A DNA stretch of 64,000 nt from the NCBI RefSeq assembly GCF_964355755.1, contig NC_092671.1:5901001-5965000 (forward strand). The letters run 5' to 3'. The translations under genes and the position numbers were made by a program. The notes beneath the pieces are model-generated. The model was not told the DNA's origin and did not search any database. It saw nothing but the letters and a program-made list of their open reading frames with translations. Source of the stretch: Antedon mediterranea. Taxonomy: Eukaryota > Echinodermata > Crinoidea > Comatulida > Antedonidae. Shown piece after piece: positions 1 through 57,400 of this stretch; the first letter of the stretch is position 1; each line of letters opens with the position of its first letter.

Positions 1-1
1 T

Positions 2-3000
2 GGAAGAAGAAATGGAAATGTTTTTAACTTTGGAAGTTCAGTCACATTTGAGTGTTACACAGGTTATGTGCTATCTGGAAGAAGTTACAGAGTATGTCAG
101 GCAGATGCAGAGTGGAGTGGGTCCGTTCCTGTATGTAATCGTAAGTATTTATACCTACAGTGCATTTTATATTATGCCAGGCAGATGAAGAGTGGAGTGG
201 GTCCGTTCCTGTATGTAATCGTAAGTATTTATACCTACAGTGCATTTTATATTATGCCAGGCAGATGAAGAGTGGAGTGGGTCCGTTCCTGTATGTAATC
301 GTAAGTATTTATACCTACAGTGCATTTTATATTATGTCAGGCAGATGAAGAGTGGAGTGGGTCCGTTCCTGTATGTAATCGTAAGTATTTATACCTACAG
401 TGCATTTTATATTATGCCAGGCAGATGAAGAGTGGAGTGGGTCCGTTCCTGTATGTAATCGTAAGTATTTATACCTACAGTGCATTTTATATTATGTCAG
501 GCAGATGAAGAGTGGAGTGGGTCCGTTCCTGTATGTAATCGTAAGTATTTATACCTACAGTGCATTTTATATTATGCCAGGCAGATGAAGAGTGAAGTGG
601 GTCCGTTCCTGTATGTAATCGTAAGTATTTATACCTACAGTGCATTTTATATTATGTCAGGCAGATGAAGAGTGGAGTGGGTCCGTTCCTGTATGTAATC
701 GTAAGTATTTATACCTACAGTGCATTTTATATTATGTCAGGCAGATGAAGAGTGGAGTGGGTCCGTTCCTGTATGTAATCGTAAGTATTTATACCTACAG
801 TGCATTTTATATTATGCCAGGCAGATGAAGAGTGGAGTGGGTCCGTTCCTGTATGTAATCGTAAGTATTTATACCTACAGTGCATTTTATATTATGCCAG
901 GCAGATGCAGAGTGGAGTGGGTCCGTTCCTGTATGTAATTGTAAGTATTTATACCTACAGTGCATTTTATATTATGCCAGGCAGATGAAGAGTGGAGTGG
1001 GTCCGTTCCTGTATGTAATCGTAAGTATTTATACCTACAGTGCATTTTATATTATGCCAGGCAGATGAAGAGTGGAGTGGGTCCGTTCCTGTATGTAATC
1101 GTAAGTATTTATACCTACAGTGCATTTTATATTATGCCAGGCAGATGAAGAGTGGAGTGGGTCCGTTCCTGTATGTAATCGTAAGTATTTATACCTACAG
1201 TGCATTTTATATTATGCCAGGCAGATGAAGAGTGGAGTGGGTCCGTTCCTGTATGTAATCGTAAGTATTTATACCTACAGTGCATTTTATATTATGCCAG
1301 GCAGATGAAGAGTGGAGTGGGTTTGTGGGTGGGTTCTAACATGGAGTAATCTTTACTCCATGGTTCTAACAACATGATCATGCCAATTTAAATAAACAAT
1401 ACTTTTTTTCATTAGCAATTAGATGTCCATTTATACCAGAACCCGAAGATGGTTATTTGTTTGGAACAGAATATACATATGGCAAAACAATCAGGATTAA
1501 TTGTAATAGCGGGTTTGTAGTGACTGGAACTAATTTGCAATTGGTTAAAGCTACCTGTCAAGCGGACGCAACATGGAATCACAGCCCACAGACATGCGAA
1601 GGTACAGTACCTTTATATGAATGATTTATTAATTTAAGTTCAGACTAAGTTTAGTGGAGCTGTAGCTTGGTGGTTAACATGCTTGCCTTCCAATCCCAGG
1701 GTTCAACTTCAATCCTGTTGTGCCAGGGTTGTAACTCACGACTCTTTCAACTCCACTTCCTAAGCCTCAAATGAGTCTTAGTTTATAAGCACCGTAATAG
1801 CACCAAAAAATAGTTCCTGTAATTGGCGAGTTACTCGCAGTTGGATGTGTATGAAATAAGATAAAAAAGTTAGCACTGTCGGGTACAGTATGATTTTTTG
1901 ACTTTGGTATTGTTAGCATTGTACATTTCAATGTTGTACCTTAATATTATATACTGTATAACAGCAATATACTTCTGATGATACAGTACTTATGATGACC
2001 AGTGATACTGAACACAATAACAATCTGTCCAGATATATATCCCAACTTTTATCAATTTTAATTTCAACACTCCCTGCTTCCAGCAAGTAAAATATGAATC
2101 TAAGGAAAATGTGTGTAATCTTCTTTTTTCATAAAATACATTTAACTGATTTAAGCTGTGAACTGTGGAAACCCAGGAACACCTTTGAACGGTACACGGA
2201 ATGGAGATGACTTTGGTTATGAAGGCTATATAGTGTTTAGTTGTGATGATGGTTTTAGAATTGAAGGAATAGCATCTATATATTGCGAAGCAGATAACCA
2301 GTGGTCAGAGCCTCTTCCAAAATGCATAGGTAAGTACAGTAGGTCCCCCTCCTTTGCAACACCCCTATTCAAAGAACAACCATATAAGGGAACACTTTGA
2401 TGGGTCAAAGCTAATAGTAAAAGTACAATGCACATTTATACAGTAATAAGTACAGTATGGACAATTCTCACAATTTCTCACTGCATTCAATGAATAACAC
2501 CAAAGTTAACATCCACACCGCACAAAATGGAACTCATTCCTTAATATCTGTCTACACTATCAAACTAGTTTGACAAAAAAAGTGTGATGTGCCCAAATAT
2601 GGTAGTAATATGACCATATATGGCACATCACATTTTTTTGTCACATAAAGTTTGATAGTGTAGACTGAGCTTTACACAGTTGATTATTAAACATAACAAA
2701 TTTATCATGCATTATTACTAATTTATTCCTCTTTTTATTTCATACAGGGCAATGCATTTTACCTGAAATTCCAGAAAACCTCAACCTCATTTCGAAATAC
2801 ATTGTTGGAGAACGAGTAGATGAAGGAACACAGTACAGTATAAGTTGTAAAGATGGGTACACGTTGAACTCTGACACAAACTTGTGGACGTGTCTTGCTA
2901 CAGGACTAATGTCATTTAATCCTGTTTGTACTGAAGGTATGTAAATTGATGTTTACTTTACAGTAGCCACTCATTTATTTTCAATAGATGTGGAAAGCAT

Positions 3001-6000
3001 ATGTACCATCAAATTGGAACATACCATGCAAGCCCAGTGGTCTAACAGAGCCGCAAAAATCAAGCTGATTCTTTCTTACTGTTCACATATCATTCAACAG
3101 TACAGAGTTCTCTCTTTATACATAACCTGTTTCCATTTCAAGCTGCTTCTTTCTTACTGTTCCACATTGTCATTCAACACTACAGAGTTCTGTCTTCATA
3201 CATAACCTGTTTCCATTTCAAGCTGCTTCTTTCTTACTGTTCCACATTGTCATTCAACAGTACAGAGTTCTCTCTTCATACATACCCTGTTTCCATTTCA
3301 AGCTGCTTCTTTCTTACTGTTCCACATTGTCATTCAACAGTACAGAGTTCTGTCTTCATACATAACCTGTTTCCATTTCAAGCTGCTTCTTTCTTACTGT
3401 TCCACATTGTCATTCAACAGTACAGAGTTCTCTCTTCATACATACCCTGTTTCCATTTAAAGCTGCTTCTTTCTTACTGTTCCACATTGTCATTCAACAG
3501 TACAGAGTTCTGTCTTCATACATAACCTGTTTTTTTTTTCAGATCCCTGTGACGCATTAGAAGTAATTGAAAATGGTGCAATAGAATACTCCAACACACA
3601 AAATGATGAAGGTTTATTTTTGCCTGGGACAGTTGCAACTTACTCTTGTATTGTAGGATATGAAGTAACTGATGGAGATACAATAAGAACTTGTCAACTA
3701 GGCAATTTCATAAGAGAAGAAGTAACTTGTACAATAAGTAAGAAGGATCATTTTAGTATGTTAGTAAGAGATTGTATGACTGCTGCTTAAGCTCTGTCTC
3801 AGCCTACACTATCAAACTTGACAAAAAACGTGTGTTGTGCTCAAATATGGTATGACATCATCATGTCCATATATGGGCACATCATATTTTGTTCTCACAT
3901 AAAGTTTGATAGTGCAGACAGAGCTTTCCATCTGGTTTACATACAGCACATGGTAAAATCGCTTATTACTGACAACTGCACGGATTGATGAAATGAGTGA
4001 AATTTGTCTCACATCTAGAGATCAATTGATAACTACTGTAGTAGACATAAAAACATAGTCGTTTAATACTCTTTACATAACCTTTTGTTTGTTTTTTAGA
4101 AAGAAGGTCTGGCAAAAAACTAAACAATATAGAAAATGATTGAAAATATGTTTGACTACCGTATATGCAATGCATTATGTTATTCTTTTATTTTACAGCA
4201 ACATGTGATGTACCTCAAATTGATAACGGTTATCCAGTTGACAATCCTGTCACAGTTAACCATGACGATTACGTCATTTACAATTGTGACTCTGGATATA
4301 CCGTCAGTCCCTCATCTGTAGCATATTGTTTTGATAAAGTATTAACACCTCCAATATGTATTGAAGGTAATTATTTAAAACTCATGGTACATAACATATA
4401 CATAGTTCCTATTCATACAACTGGTTAAAAATTTTGACATAGATCTTGTCATAAACATGAATTATTAACCATTAAATCCTCATTTCCCTCAAGAAAATGT
4501 GTTTTTGATATTACTATTTTGATGATCTTATTAGATTTTGTGTGCAGTGCAGCTTACGTTTCGAAATGGTTATAAATCACAGAACACTGATTATGAACGC
4601 ACACACTGAATATGAGCATGCTATGCTAAATGTTTATACACTCAACTGTCCCAATAACGGACTCTCTGAAAACCCAATACTAGACTTTTCTTGTCCAAAC
4701 AGTCCCAAATTCGTTTTTACCATTAATAACACATTCCCAATACCAGACTTTTCAGAAAACCATATTTGGCCAGCCCAAAGGTGTCCAGTATTGGGAGAGT
4801 TAACTGTAGTATGTACAGGTATTTGAAAGAAAATTGATATTTCACATGAGTTCAAACGACTCCTTAGTGAAAGTTTGATAATTAATAATGATAATATAAT
4901 AATTACAGATCCATGTTCCAGCGTTTCACCGATTAGCGATGGTGAAATCATATACAGTTCAACGCAAGATGCCAGTGGAATGTTTCCACCTCAAACTACC
5001 GTTACATACCAGTGTGACGAAGGCTACAAGATAAGTCCAGATACATCTAAGGAAAGAGTATGTGCTAAAGGAGAATTTTTACCAGAAAATTCCCCAGAAT
5101 GTTTGTTAAGTATGTTTTGAATTAAATTGATTATATACTTAATACTAATGTTTACAAGTTGAAAATATTAGGAAACATTCATTATTTCTACTATTTCTAT
5201 AGTAATAACTGTAAGTTTTTAAGACTCTGTCACCTACTGTGATTGGATGGCATTAGCAAATAGATGTTCTTCATCCAAGTATGGTCATTTATATAATATG
5301 TAGATAGTTAGTTTTTTAGATTAAATTTTCACTGTAACTGAATTCTTTTGTTATTGTTTAGCAACATGTGATACTCAATCTATCAGTAATGGAAAAGTGG
5401 CCAATGGCACGGCTACCGTATACCACGGAATGACAGTTGAATGGAGTTGCAACATGGGATACGAGTCAGAAGATGAGTTGGATTATATAACATGCTGGAA
5501 TGAAACGTTTGTACCCTATTTACCAAGTTGCACAGAGAGTAAGTAGTTGCACATGTAGCGTTTGAACAAACCCCCTCACAGTCTGTAAGAGTTTTCAGGT
5601 GCTAGCTTTGGCCAATTCTGTCCATTGGTACTACAGTAGGTCAACACAAAACAATGGAGATATCAACTCAGCTTTACTGTTAGCTTATGCTAAATGAACT
5701 CTGCTCTTTTTTGGGTGAGCTGTTTAACAATCCTGCCTTGATATGTTAACGACATTATGTTTTTTTTCTAATGAATGTCAATTTTAAACACATGTATATA
5801 TGGTTAGGACATCTGCATATCAAGCAGAAGGTCCGGGTTTGATTCTCTATGATATATGTATCAATTTTTTCTATGTGCAGAGCCTTGTCCCGAGATTACA
5901 GAAAATGTCAAAGTGGTATACAACCAGGGTGATAATAATGGAACCTTCCCACCCAATACAATAGCAAATTGGAAGACTACAGAATCAGAAGTTGTGGATG

Positions 6001-9000
6001 ATGGTATATCTGTATTGAAAGTGTGTTCCTATACTGCTGTCTGTAGTCTAGGCTCTTTTGAGAAAACAAAGACTTGTATAAGTAAGTAATATCAATTTAA
6101 ACATTTAGTTACTTTTTTAACACATTTAAATTAAAACAAACACAATTAAAACAAACATAGCTACCATTCATACCTGTACACTACACTACAGGTTTCCATA
6201 TTTTGATTTTCATTTAGCTAAGTTATTCAATATGAATTCAGAGTCAAATATCAAAGTGGTATACAATCCGGATGATCTAATGTTAATCTCAGAGAATATA
6301 AACAATCTATTTTTACTACAGCAACCTGCCCACGTTTTGAAATACCGCATGCTGATGTGACGTACCACCCACATTCTCGTGAAATATTTTCAAAATCAAA
6401 ACGAAAGGTTAGATGCCAGAATCCTTATAGGATGCAAGACTCAACATTGAAAGAAAGTACTTGCTTAGACAATGGAGAATGGTCATCGGAAACACCATCA
6501 TGTGTTCTAGGTAAAAATGGTTAATTAACCACTATGATGATCAAGGGTTGCATTTAATACTTATAAAATAGGAAAGGTTTTTTGTAATTGTTCATATCAC
6601 AGACTGTGTACTTTTCTTTAAAAAAAAGCATTAAACATTAAAACAAATCATTTTTGGTTGAGATATTACAATATAATTTAACTCACCCAATAACAAAAAG
6701 CCTTGATAGCCTCAAGTAATGTTAAAATATTGTTGTGATCGTGAACAATTTCATTTATTTAAAATCAGTTTTTATTGTATATATGAAATATTTTTTATAT
6801 TTATTTTCTATTTAAAAAAAAAAATTTCCGTGTATTTTAAACTGCAGCGTATTAACAATTTTTCCGGTTTTTAATTTTTGAATGAATTAGACCAATAAAA
6901 GATAAATTGAATTGTTATAGATAGATACAAATATAAACAACTGTGGTTATACTACGTATTTCTTATGTCTCATCCTTTTTCTACAGGGTGCATTGTACTT
7001 GGTCCTCCACAAAATGGTCGTTTGGTATCAGAAATTCTGGAAGGTTATAAAATACTGGATGATAGAACTATTATTCACGAATGTTTTGCTAATTACTTCT
7101 TAGTAGGAGAAAATAAAACAAGTTGCATGTTGGATAATGCAGTTTTACATCAACCACAATGTGTACATGGTGAGCACCATATAAACTATACACTCACTGA
7201 GATACAAATTATCATTAGTTACAATGCTCCATGGTTATAACAATAAAAATAATTAAAGCTAAACTGCCATAAAGGCGCATTTATACTACTCACGATTGAC
7301 GATAAGTTGATAAATAAGCGTTTTTCCTACAGAAATTGTAATAAATCAAAAAGGTTTTCATCCTAGAACTATAGGACAACCATTTACGCTGTCCATGTTG
7401 ATTTGAAAGAGTAATATTATCGTGACAATACAAAGATTTTATTGTTCTTATTGATCATGACGTCATTTGATTGGATACATATTACCTAAAAGACAGATTG
7501 TATAGTTAAATCAAAAGAAAGAAAATCAAAACAAAAAATAGCCTCTATAATTATAGATACAATTAATTATGTTTTTTATGTTTCTTTGTTTGTACAGAAA
7601 GTAACTATACTAGCGGTAAATACTGTCCAATACTTCGGAACAAAGAATTTGGATGGTATGACTATTCAGACAGTTTGAATGAGGGCAGTGTTGTACGGTT
7701 TGGTTGTACTCATCAGTACATATCGAGCATCCCTGCTTTCCAGAGGGAATGTAGACAAGATGATACTGGTCGTTTTGACTGGTACCCACTAATTACAGAA
7801 GAGCCTGTATGCAGGGAATCAAGTAAGTAAACATCGTCATTGCTAGCCATTCTCAACCCACTGCAGAGTGAAGGCCTCTCCAAGTTCAATCCATAACTCT
7901 CTATTTTATGCTGTTCTCACTGCCACATTATACATTTTCTTGGGAAATTTCCTCTTGCCATCTCACTTCAGGCCTTCCTTTGGTGTCTTACACTTTCTTG
8001 GTATCCAATCAGTGACAGCTTTTGTCCATCTATCATCTGTCTGCCATGCTATCTTTCACTATATCTATAAACTTTGTGTGCCTTTGGATCCAGACACTAG
8101 TTTTCCTATCATGTTTTTATCCTCATTGTTTTAGACTGCCGTGACTTAGAAGAAGACAGAGCAACTTTGTCATCTTCTGCAGGTAACAGTCTTAACAGCT
8201 GGATAAATACCCGTCATTCAGTTGAGTTTCAGCCAGATAGCACAGGCAGTGAACCCTTGCTTCAAATTCAGTTTAACAACATCAAAGCAGTGTCTGGTGT
8301 TGTGCTCAAGTCAAGTAAACGGGCCTGGGTCACTCTGTACCGTGTCGAATACAAGAGTGAGGATGGAACATGGAAAGTTATCAAGAACAATGTTGGTGAT
8401 GATGTGGTATGGCAAATGCATTTCGATTTAGCTTGCTTAATAGAGAGGTTTCGCAACACTATGAATACGATGACGAAAACAGATACGTCACGCACACATA
8501 TTCGTTTCGTAAGCCAGTAAAAATCTGTCTGGCATTTTAGTAAATTACTTTTACTTTCAATAAATCTATAATTATATTATAATCATGAATCATTCCTGAT
8601 TCAAATGCAAAATGTGCAAAAATATATCAAAAACTATACTCGTTTTGTAGTTACAAATATGACTGGTGATATTCGTCGACACGAATAGGCTTTACGAATA
8701 TGAAATAGGGATCAGCTCAAAAGTTTCACAAATGTGTGACTTATCCATTTTCGTTATCGTATTCGTAATGTTACAAAACCTCCCTATTAGTAACTTAAAA
8801 TAAACAATACAGTTTGTTGAACAAGAGTATTTATTTTTAATTACATATATGCATCAATGCCATTCAATTAAACAAACCACACAATCATTACTTTTACTCA
8901 AATTCAATTAAAACTATAACTTTAATAGACGACCCTTTTATAAATCTTATCTCCATCCAGGAAACTCTTTCCATCTATGAAGGGCATTTGGTGCCAAAAT

Positions 9001-54400: not shown

Positions 54401-57400
54401 AGGACATCCTACTACCAGACCATAGCGATACTCAATTAGTATATTTTCCTATAAATAGTTAAAAGCAAATTTTATCTTTAAACTCAGACTTGAACTTAGA
54501 TGCGCTTGAATTGTGTTATCAGACATCTGCTTATATCCATACGTCTATCGCTTTCCTCCACTTCTTAAAGCTACGCTTGAAAGAAGTATAGAAACTGCAA
54601 ACTCACTGTGCTGTTTTCATTACATATACTCAAGTATTGAATTGTGGTATATTTAATAGAAATTATAATAAGGACGAACCAATTACCGCGGTTAACTAAG
54701 ACAGGACAAGTTCTTTCTGTGGCCAGCGGCACTAGCAAACTTTGAAATCATGATAGAACATTAGTATAATCAAATTCATCAAGGAAACGTTAATTATATA
54801 TGGTCGTTAAATATATCATTCAAGCACTAGATACTTCATTAATACTCTACTAAATGTTGTGATATAGACTCGTTTTGACATTCTGTTTAACTTTTGCAGG
54901 TGTTTGGATTATAAAATAATTTTATGTTGGTAAAATATTTATATATATACAATTAAGGGACTAGTACTGTTCCGCTGTACCACGCCGAGAGTGTTAAAGG
55001 GTTGCTATCCGATCGGGTTTGAACAATACCATGAAAGCCCCAGTGGTCTAATGGTTAGGACATCTGCATATGAAGCAGAAGGTTGAACAATACCATGAAA
55101 GCCCCAGTGGTCTAATGGTTAGGACATCTGCATATAAAGCAGAACGTTTAACAATGCCATGAAAGCCCCAGTGGTCTAATGGTTAGGACATCTGAATATC
55201 AAGCAGAAGGTTACGTGTTCGAATCTCGGTTGGGGCGACTTTTTCTCATTCTCAAGATTTCCTCATCTTATCGTTTCAAATTAATTAATTAGATTTCAGT
55301 ATATCACCGGGTGGTTTAGAATTAATGTTCACAGGTGCTTGATGTGTTTATATAACATACTGTATAGGTTCGAATCTCGGTTGGGGCGGCTTTTTCTCAT
55401 TCTCACAGTTTCCTAATTTTTTTTCGTTTTAAATTATATATATTTATTATATATTTTTATTTGAAAACAAGTATTGCAGTTGCCCGTTAACAAATAATAT
55501 TTAAAGATGAATTCTAGAGAGTATTTTTTAAGACATTATGTGTTGTGTGTTCTTCTCTTGTAGTGTAAAAAACTACATAAAACCTGGTGCTAATTTATTA
55601 TATTGAAACACATTCCTACACATGAATTAAGCCAGTTAAATAAACAATTTATTTATAAACTTTTCAAATTGAATTATAAAAGAAAACAAATATATTAAGC
55701 TTTGAGGTAAACTGTGTGTTTAAAAAAAGTAATCATGTAAAGTTGAGAATGTCTTGATGTTTTAGATGTTATGCTACTGTGCAACCATACTGTCATTTTT
55801 TTAATGCTAATTGTAAAATTTAATGTTATAATATAATAAACATTAATGTTATGTATCATTTGCCTAGAAAAGTGACAATGTCTCTGTGTAAAGCCTTGTC
55901 TACACTATCCAACTATCAAACTTTTTGTGACAAAAAAATGTGATGTGCCCATGGACATGATGATGTCATATTATTACAGTATTTGGGTATATCACTATCA
56001 TAATTGGACACATCACACTTTTTTTTGTCAAACGAGTTTGATAGTGTAGACAGACCTTAAAGCTAACCTTTTTTCCAGTTTGTCTATAATTTTAGCGTGG
56101 GCTTATTTGTTAACTTTATTGACCTTAAAATGTCTTATATGATAACAAATGTTGTATGTAAAAACATACCTACAAGTTAAATGTGTTTTATTAACTTTGT
56201 AATATCCTTTGTCAGGAAGGTAGATTTACATTGAGTAAGTCTGAGACCACAGGGACCATTCACCTCAAATCTTATTTAAGCTCAGGTTTAAAATAGCTAC
56301 TGAATTAATTATTTAGATTCACATAAAATAAGAAAAATAAAGAATATAATGAAATTCAACAGCCACATTTAATAATATTACACTCGCACATATCGAAATT
56401 GCATGGTGTAAGAGTTCAATAGAGTAGTTATTTAATATCATGTGACACACAATCCTTCAATCTACTTTGATGTAGTGTTTATACCTGTTTTATTCTCTTA
56501 ATAAGTGTGAGGACACCCTTATTAAGAGGACACTTTGTTGTTATTGTGATGTAAGGCTTTAATAGAGTAGTTATTTAATATAATATGACTCACAATCTTT
56601 CAATCTACGTTGATCGTGTTTATTTGGGTCCCAAGGGCGTCTCTTTAATATTAGTTCTATTGCATTGTATTGTATGTTTGACAAATGCTAAAATACAAAA
56701 TCTAATTTTTGAATCAGGTAGTGCACTAGACAAATCAGCTAAGGATTTACAAAGGACGTCTGTGTCTCTAGGACATCATCGTAATAAACATTCAGAAGAA
56801 ATGGACAACGCCTTCAAGAAAATCAAAGACGCATTCATTGAGGTTCATAAACTGTAAGTAATAATGTTCAGAATTGTATAATAATTGTGATAAAATATAT
56901 CCTTTGACATTTTTTTGTATTCTTTTGTTTTCGATGTACCTTACTTGGACTGTGTAAAGCTTTGTCTACACTATGAAACTAGTTTGACAAAAAAAAAGTG
57001 TAATGTGCCCAAATATGGTAGTGATATGCCCTGATATGGTAGTGATATGACATCATGTCCATATATGGGCACATTACATTTTTTTTTGTCACATAAAGTT
57101 TCATAGTGTAGACAAGGCTTAGGCATACCTGCCACTGCATGTTGTCATCGCAATTTCCCCACTCAATGCAGAAACATTTATTGCTGTTATTGGTATGAAT
57201 ACTTGATACTTGATAGAAATAAGATTTGTAATATCACAACCCCTGTCCCTGCTGAACATAACAGTGGCTTAACGCAGAGGCCTGAGGCCCCTGGATTTGG
57301 AACCCCAAGTAGACCCTTCAACGATGGAGGCCTCAGGCGTTTTTAGCCTTTTTTGACATATTTTAATGCCTGGCTCTGAGGACCCTGGGTTTAACCAGTG

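Follow-up and report, generated by a model that had tools for sequence, protein, structure and literature searches.

A mirage-like minisatellite across a 5′ splice site in a CCP gene of Antedon mediterranea, most likely removed with the intron

A CCP gene of Antedon mediterranea carries, at the 5′ splice site of one of its exons, a minisatellite whose units each combine the last bases of the exon with the first bases of the adjoining intron. Very probably this array is a mirage, that is, a minisatellite that arose across a 5′ splice site and is removed as intron, position 140 being joined to position 1416 (positions are those of the window, the whole 64-kb stretch of DNA analysed, contig C2 5901001-5965000). 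The exons on either side of the array are intact, its repeated donors have definite consequences for the reading frame, and the same donor-spanning anatomy is present in four other genes of this genome. Structures of this kind are already in print; the array is a further case, and probably extends their range beyond lancelets.

The array and the gene that carries it

Tandem Repeats Finder (TRF), run on the window, reports a repeat at 93-1322 with a period of 80 bp, 15.4 copies and 98% matches (score 2397), which is far beyond chance expectation. Each unit consists of 48 nt of the 3′ end of the CCP exon and 32 nt of the start of the adjoining intron, and the array accordingly begins 48 nt before the exon ends and then extends into the intron, its first copy being the authentic exon end with its donor (Table 1). 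Read unit by unit, the array contains 15 GTAAGT donors at 141+80k, the first of which is the authentic donor of the exon, and 15 CCTACAG sites, each ending at 160+80k. Between these acceptor-like sites and the donors lie 14 complete blocks of 60 nt, from 161-220 through 1201-1260, whilst the distance from a donor is 20 nt to the next acceptor-like site and 100 nt to the one after. The final CCTACAG (1274-1280) has no donor downstream because the last unit is truncated at about 1322. Four positions vary among the 14 complete units; they are scattered and all fall within the 60-nt part. A whole-genome search with the unit (354 Mb, 18 contigs), of a type that can miss copies, found no second copy elsewhere. 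The initial annotation had described an 80-bp repeat of CCP exon end, GTAAGT and CCTACAG, with 60-nt blocks and these two spacings, and TRF and the reading of the units bear it out. Its statement that the blocks are open in phase 1 holds for 13 of the 14, the exception being block 6, which contains an in-frame TGA.

Table 1. Positions of the array, its splice signals and neighbouring features in the window
Feature	Position	Strand	Remarks
CCP exon, 3′ part	1..140	+	174 nt in all, first 34 nt upstream of the window; Sushi match
80-bp minisatellite, 15.4 copies	93..1322	+	TRF and unit reading; single place in genome search
Authentic 5′ splice site GTAAGT	141..146	+	10.23 bits, 84th percentile of 92 CCP donors
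14 further GTAAGT donors, 221+80k (k = 0 to 13)	221..1266	+	Direct use of any leads to a stop
15 acceptor-like CCTACAG, ends 160+80k (k = 0 to 14)	154..1280	+	4.8 bits, 19th percentile of 99 CCP acceptors
14 possible mini-exons of 60 nt, starts 161+80k, coding for LHFILCQADEEWSGSVPVCN or similar	161..1260	+	13 of 14 open, phase 1
Block 6, in-frame TGA	561..620	+	Unit reading
Perfect hairpin, 10-nt arms and 3-nt loop, between two GGTTCTAAC copies	1340..1362	.	Past the array end; partial match on C1
Next CCP exon, its acceptor the likely partner of donor 141	1416..1601	+	Acceptor 10.44 bits, 66th percentile; Sushi match

The exon that bears the array is exon 5 of the gene. Since it starts 34 nt before the window, the segment 2-140, which had been taken for the exon, is part of a real CCP exon but only its 3′ part. 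The exons flanking the array, once joined, match the Sushi/CCP family in two stretches (PF00084, E 7.4e-22, 77.9 bits against a cut-off of 20.7), in agreement with the CCP identity first given to them, and the junction of exon 5 with its successor keeps phase and yields two good Sushi domains. On the upstream side, an exon near 7694 of the upstream-flank locus (L001) has by eye the look of a signal peptide, and after it come a cysteine-rich exon and CCP exons; when joined, the first three exons match the Sushi model (E 1.2e-8). Further along the window, a custom HMM gives nine plus-strand CCP matches between 1424 and 7162. A plus-strand reading frame lying downstream of these exons, 8101-8517, scores 28.3 bits for the F5/8 type C domain, against a cut-off of 28.2 (E 2.1e-6), and perhaps belongs to the same gene.

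Several other features of the window are recorded here in their own right. The hairpin and its flanking GGTTCTAAC pair span 1332-1370, just beyond the array, and resemble a tiny insertion; a 44-nt segment on contig C1 (41024854-41024897) is 89% alike. Another intron of the same CCP gene holds a second minisatellite (3060-3532, 80 bp, 5.9 copies), with an unrelated unit and found at one place in the genome. We considered it as a mirage and rejected it: it ends 8 nt short of the next exon's acceptor AG (3541-3542) and lacks sequence of that exon. Two short elements with inverted ends (CTACACTATCAAACT...AGTTTGATAGTG), at 2547-2668 and 3789-3926, are MITE-like by look, and a sequence similar to them by eye occurs near 118-255 of the upstream-flank locus. 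At 55019-55237 there is a 64-bp array of three copies, which may be a tandem tRNA-derived element, since its last copy overlaps a predicted tRNA-Asp-like gene (55165-55237). Family searches for COX1 and GFP gave no match; in controls COX1 responded in 8 of 14 and GFP in none, so that the lack of a GFP match carries no weight.

Splice-site strength and reading frame

Splice sites were scored with position weight matrices (PWMs) built from CCP exons of the same genome, 92 donors (of 102 CCP domains) and 99 acceptors (of 101) being kept; the acceptor picker favours pyrimidine-rich in-phase AGs, so the scores of real acceptors are somewhat raised. The donors of the array share the score of the authentic one, save that at 941, where the last exon base is T (8.17 bits, 48th percentile). 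The score of the CCTACAG site is reached by 7.7% of 7,274 sampled AGs, and the AG that precedes it lies 15 nt upstream, where real acceptors have a median of 41 nt and only 1 of 99 has 16 nt or less. The acceptor before 1416, by comparison, has no AG in the 69 nt ahead of it. Each unit also holds another candidate acceptor, of similar score, which would define an open block of 36 nt. The introns between CCP exons (n=122) are 88 nt at the shortest and just one is of 100 nt or less, so that an intron of 100 nt, formed by skipping from a donor to the acceptor-like site after next, is possible but extreme.

The array may be pictured as arising in a few steps. The stretch covering the exon end and the intron start (48 + 32 nt) would have been duplicated in tandem, and the copies, expanded and homogenised, would have spread into the intron, presumably by slippage or unequal exchange. 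As the first copy keeps an intact exon end and donor, the rest of the array lies inside the intron. The donor after 140, the first of the series, would then be spliced to the regular acceptor ahead of 1416 and the array would be removed with the intron, its 14 extra donors and weak CCTACAG sites being passengers. An extra donor, if used directly, would bring in a stop and probably transcript decay.

The 15 donors are of nearly equal strength, and this is the strength of an alternative in which the downstream donors are used in their own right, so that the exon grows in steps of 80 nt and premature stops and decay reduce the amount of protein. By frame reading, however, donors 2 to 15 each give a stop when used directly, so alternative donors could only be noise or down-regulation, and the sequence holds nothing that points to regulation. 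We consider it very unlikely that the array serves in this way.

To judge how unusual the open blocks are, 91 other CCP exon/donor boundaries of this genome, out of the 92 behind the donor model, were tandemised in silico. A block that is open, keeps phase and has an acceptor at least as good appeared at 3 of the 91 boundaries when the same 48+32 split was applied, in 870 of 18,200 trials (4.8%) with an 80-bp unit split at random, and in 1,062 of 14,969 trials (7.1%) with a random unit size. The mini-exon pattern is therefore mildly unusual and not compelling, and the mini-exon reading of the array is weakly supported. The same figures are a counterpoint to the mirage: blocks of a kind seen in 3 to 7% of simulated arrays are explained by chance less comfortably than the rest of the anatomy.

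Arrays at other splice sites of the same genome

Two approaches brought further arrays to light. In a survey of CCP loci, picked by CCP matches and not by repeats, a CCP array on contig C1 was revealed; searches with repeated-donor patterns gave, among the matches listed, which cover C1 and the start of C2, at least 13 arrays, together with three isolated matches (C1:4696374, 18497662 and 22165302). For 12 arrays we inspected the flanking sequence by eye, in most cases on a single side. Four are anchored at a donor (L013, L035, L041, L043) and one at an acceptor (L040), five (L037, L039, L042, L044, L047) have no exon touching the side that was read, and for two (L045, L046) the array start lay outside the stretch read. 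The anchored arrays recur in unrelated genes: those at donors in another CCP gene, a dynein heavy chain gene, a POT-type transporter gene and an LDLa gene, and that at an acceptor in a collagen-like gene.

In the other CCP gene (L013 5339-6728, minus strand) a unit of 30 bp, present 46 times, repeats the end of a CCP exon with its donor, and the array occupies the intron up to about 20 nt from the following exon. The dynein array (L035, L036) has a 68-bp unit that repeats the exon end plus donor (AAAG/GTAAGT), runs for about 5.4 kb, from C1 19363306 to about 19368758, and makes up most of its intron. The exon before it ends ...AMDIYDKVAK and the following coding exon, which is intact, reads VVGPKQEKLKSAEEEL; the two joined match Dynein axonemal heavy chain 3 (E 1.4e-52), a match that ranks second, behind a chain of similar length and another name. 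The POT-type array, with a unit of 19 bp, follows an exon read by frame only, the upstream neighbour of which matches PF00854 (E 1.3e-15), and an array of 69 bp follows the LDLa exon (PF00057, E 8.4e-11). In the collagen-like gene (L040, C2:602500-603600), whose match to PF01391 falls below the cut-off, a 55-bp repeat is anchored at the acceptor and is thus a mirror image of the donor arrays.

In none of the four sister donor arrays did the splice models find an acceptor of at least 3 bits within the opening two units. The downstream donors examined in the sister arrays either shift the frame or are preceded by a stop (the first eight downstream donors were examined in the window array and in L013, seven in L041 and three each in L035 and L043). 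The array in the window is the only one of the five donor-spanning arrays with an acceptor-like site that yields open, phase-keeping blocks. Thus the anatomy recurs, but the sisters show no usable acceptor in the two units scored and the mini-exon property is seen in the window array alone.

On contig C4 (L002 7056-8915) there is a tandem array of complete CCP exons, with a period of about 276 bp and introns of about 102-107 nt, which is a real exon array. Like the array in the window it repeats a CCP exon in tandem with a strong donor and intron; there, however, the copies are complete domains, each with its acceptor, and here no more than one domain's tail.

The sampled DNA (GC 33-34%) is rich in minisatellites, 21 arrays taking up 13,819 of 273,831 bp (5.05%). 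At the loci outside the window (L001-L034), 15 arrays and 155 CCP donors lead to an expectation of 1.06 donor-covering units by chance, and two arrays covering CCP donors were observed, that of L013 and the whole-exon array L002. Random seeding of minisatellites, retained where the first copy keeps exon and donor, is enough as an explanation. Counts of short patterns over the genome pulled in opposite directions. The pattern TGYNNNNGTAAGT followed by two GTAAGT matched 690+1129 and 737+1250 times and its reverse 78+234 and 83+198 times, an excess of about sixfold, whereas AGGTAAGT three times gave 82+295 matches against 1474+119 for its reversed control. As matches are not arrays, a few long arrays dominate and the counts disagree, we do not claim a genome-wide enrichment of donor-like arrays, and that proposal was dropped. 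The sixfold excess for the TGYNNNNGTAAGT patterns is all the same a counterpoint to the mirage, since plain random seeding need not give it.

Known relatives and what the arrays may mean

Repeats of exon boundaries have been named "mirages" in lancelet genes. Two papers treat the globins BflGb6 and BflGb9, with Adh3 cited (PMC3087553), and PGBD5, with Adh and troponin C cited (PMC3902484). As described there, mirages repeat an exon/intron boundary in tandem, in the manner of a minisatellite, next to an intact exon, many of the copies bearing AG/GT splice signals; they occur at donor and acceptor boundaries alike, have short units (10-72 bp in Adh3, 150-160 bp in the globins) and leave splicing regular (PMC3087553, PMC3902484). 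In anatomy the present array is of the same kind. The number of units in mirages is reported to vary, BflGb6 having three units in one haplotype and six in the other and Adh3 being somatically unstable (PMC3087553, PMC3902484). The differences are that the globin example reaches up to six copies where we count 15, and that a CCP gene and open, phase-keeping blocks are features of the present case. Within the set of papers and the terms searched, we found no report of mirages from other invertebrate groups.

Two more distant comparisons can be made. A minisatellite with multiple splice donors, reported in 1995, also repeats a splice donor, and its copies supply donor sites, to go by the title, whereas here the downstream donors each lead to a stop. 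Internal tandem repeats in human segmental duplications are reported to have given rise to novel introns (PMC2812944), and resemble our case in that expansion of a minisatellite is able to create or move splice sites. They concern exons of recent human paralogs, whilst here the repeats lie in an intron beside an intact exon.

Taken with the good splice sites at 141 and before 1416, the stops that follow donors 2 to 15 and the four sister arrays, a mirage is the most likely nature of the array. The density of minisatellites in the sampled DNA and, by analogy, the lancelet mirages reported without interference in splicing also favour it. The initial annotation had suggested, as one of two options, mini-exons that diversify a putative immune-type protein. 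On such a reading up to seven of the 60-nt blocks would be included by skipping alternate sites, each adding 20 CCP-tail residues with two cysteines. This has its attractions, since 13 of the 14 blocks are open in phase, the donors are strong, 100-nt introns are just inside the observed range, the property is scarce among simulated boundary arrays (3 to 7%), and a published model turns a mirage unit into a new exon (PMC3087553). Against it stand a weak acceptor with an AG-free zone of 15 nt, a stop in block 6, by which the blocks are not all open, an intron length at the floor of the CCP range (1 of 122), four sister arrays whose first two units lack such an acceptor, and the regular splicing reported for the lancelet precedents (PMC3087553, PMC3902484). 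The proposal does not stand up well to these points and we think inclusion of the blocks as cassettes very unlikely. It is just as hard to credit the wider notion of the array as a copy-number-variable store of 20-residue CCP-tail cassettes, included in frame, differing in length among alleles and on the way to becoming exons. Low-level inclusion of 20-residue blocks is possible. A second suggestion made at the outset, that of a minisatellite tolerated by exon skipping, survives to the extent that the array is best explained as absent from the mRNA. Near-identical tandem copies are a classic assembly hazard, yet with units that differ at four scattered positions, single-copy exons on both flanks and arrays of the same kind but other units in other genes, it is scarcely credible that the array or its copy number is an artefact of assembly.

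In conclusion, minisatellites that span exon boundaries occur at the splice sites of unrelated genes, probably outside lancelets too, and this probable extension of range is, together with the dynein example, the most useful part of the present work. The dynein intron, where tandem donors extend over kilobases, and the CCP array of 46 copies are natural experiments on how the first of many near-identical 5′ splice sites is chosen, and both are plausible intermediates in the gain of exons or introns. As the array in the window, alone of the five donor-spanning ones, has the makings of mini-exons, it offers the best opportunity to learn whether such repeats ever become coding.
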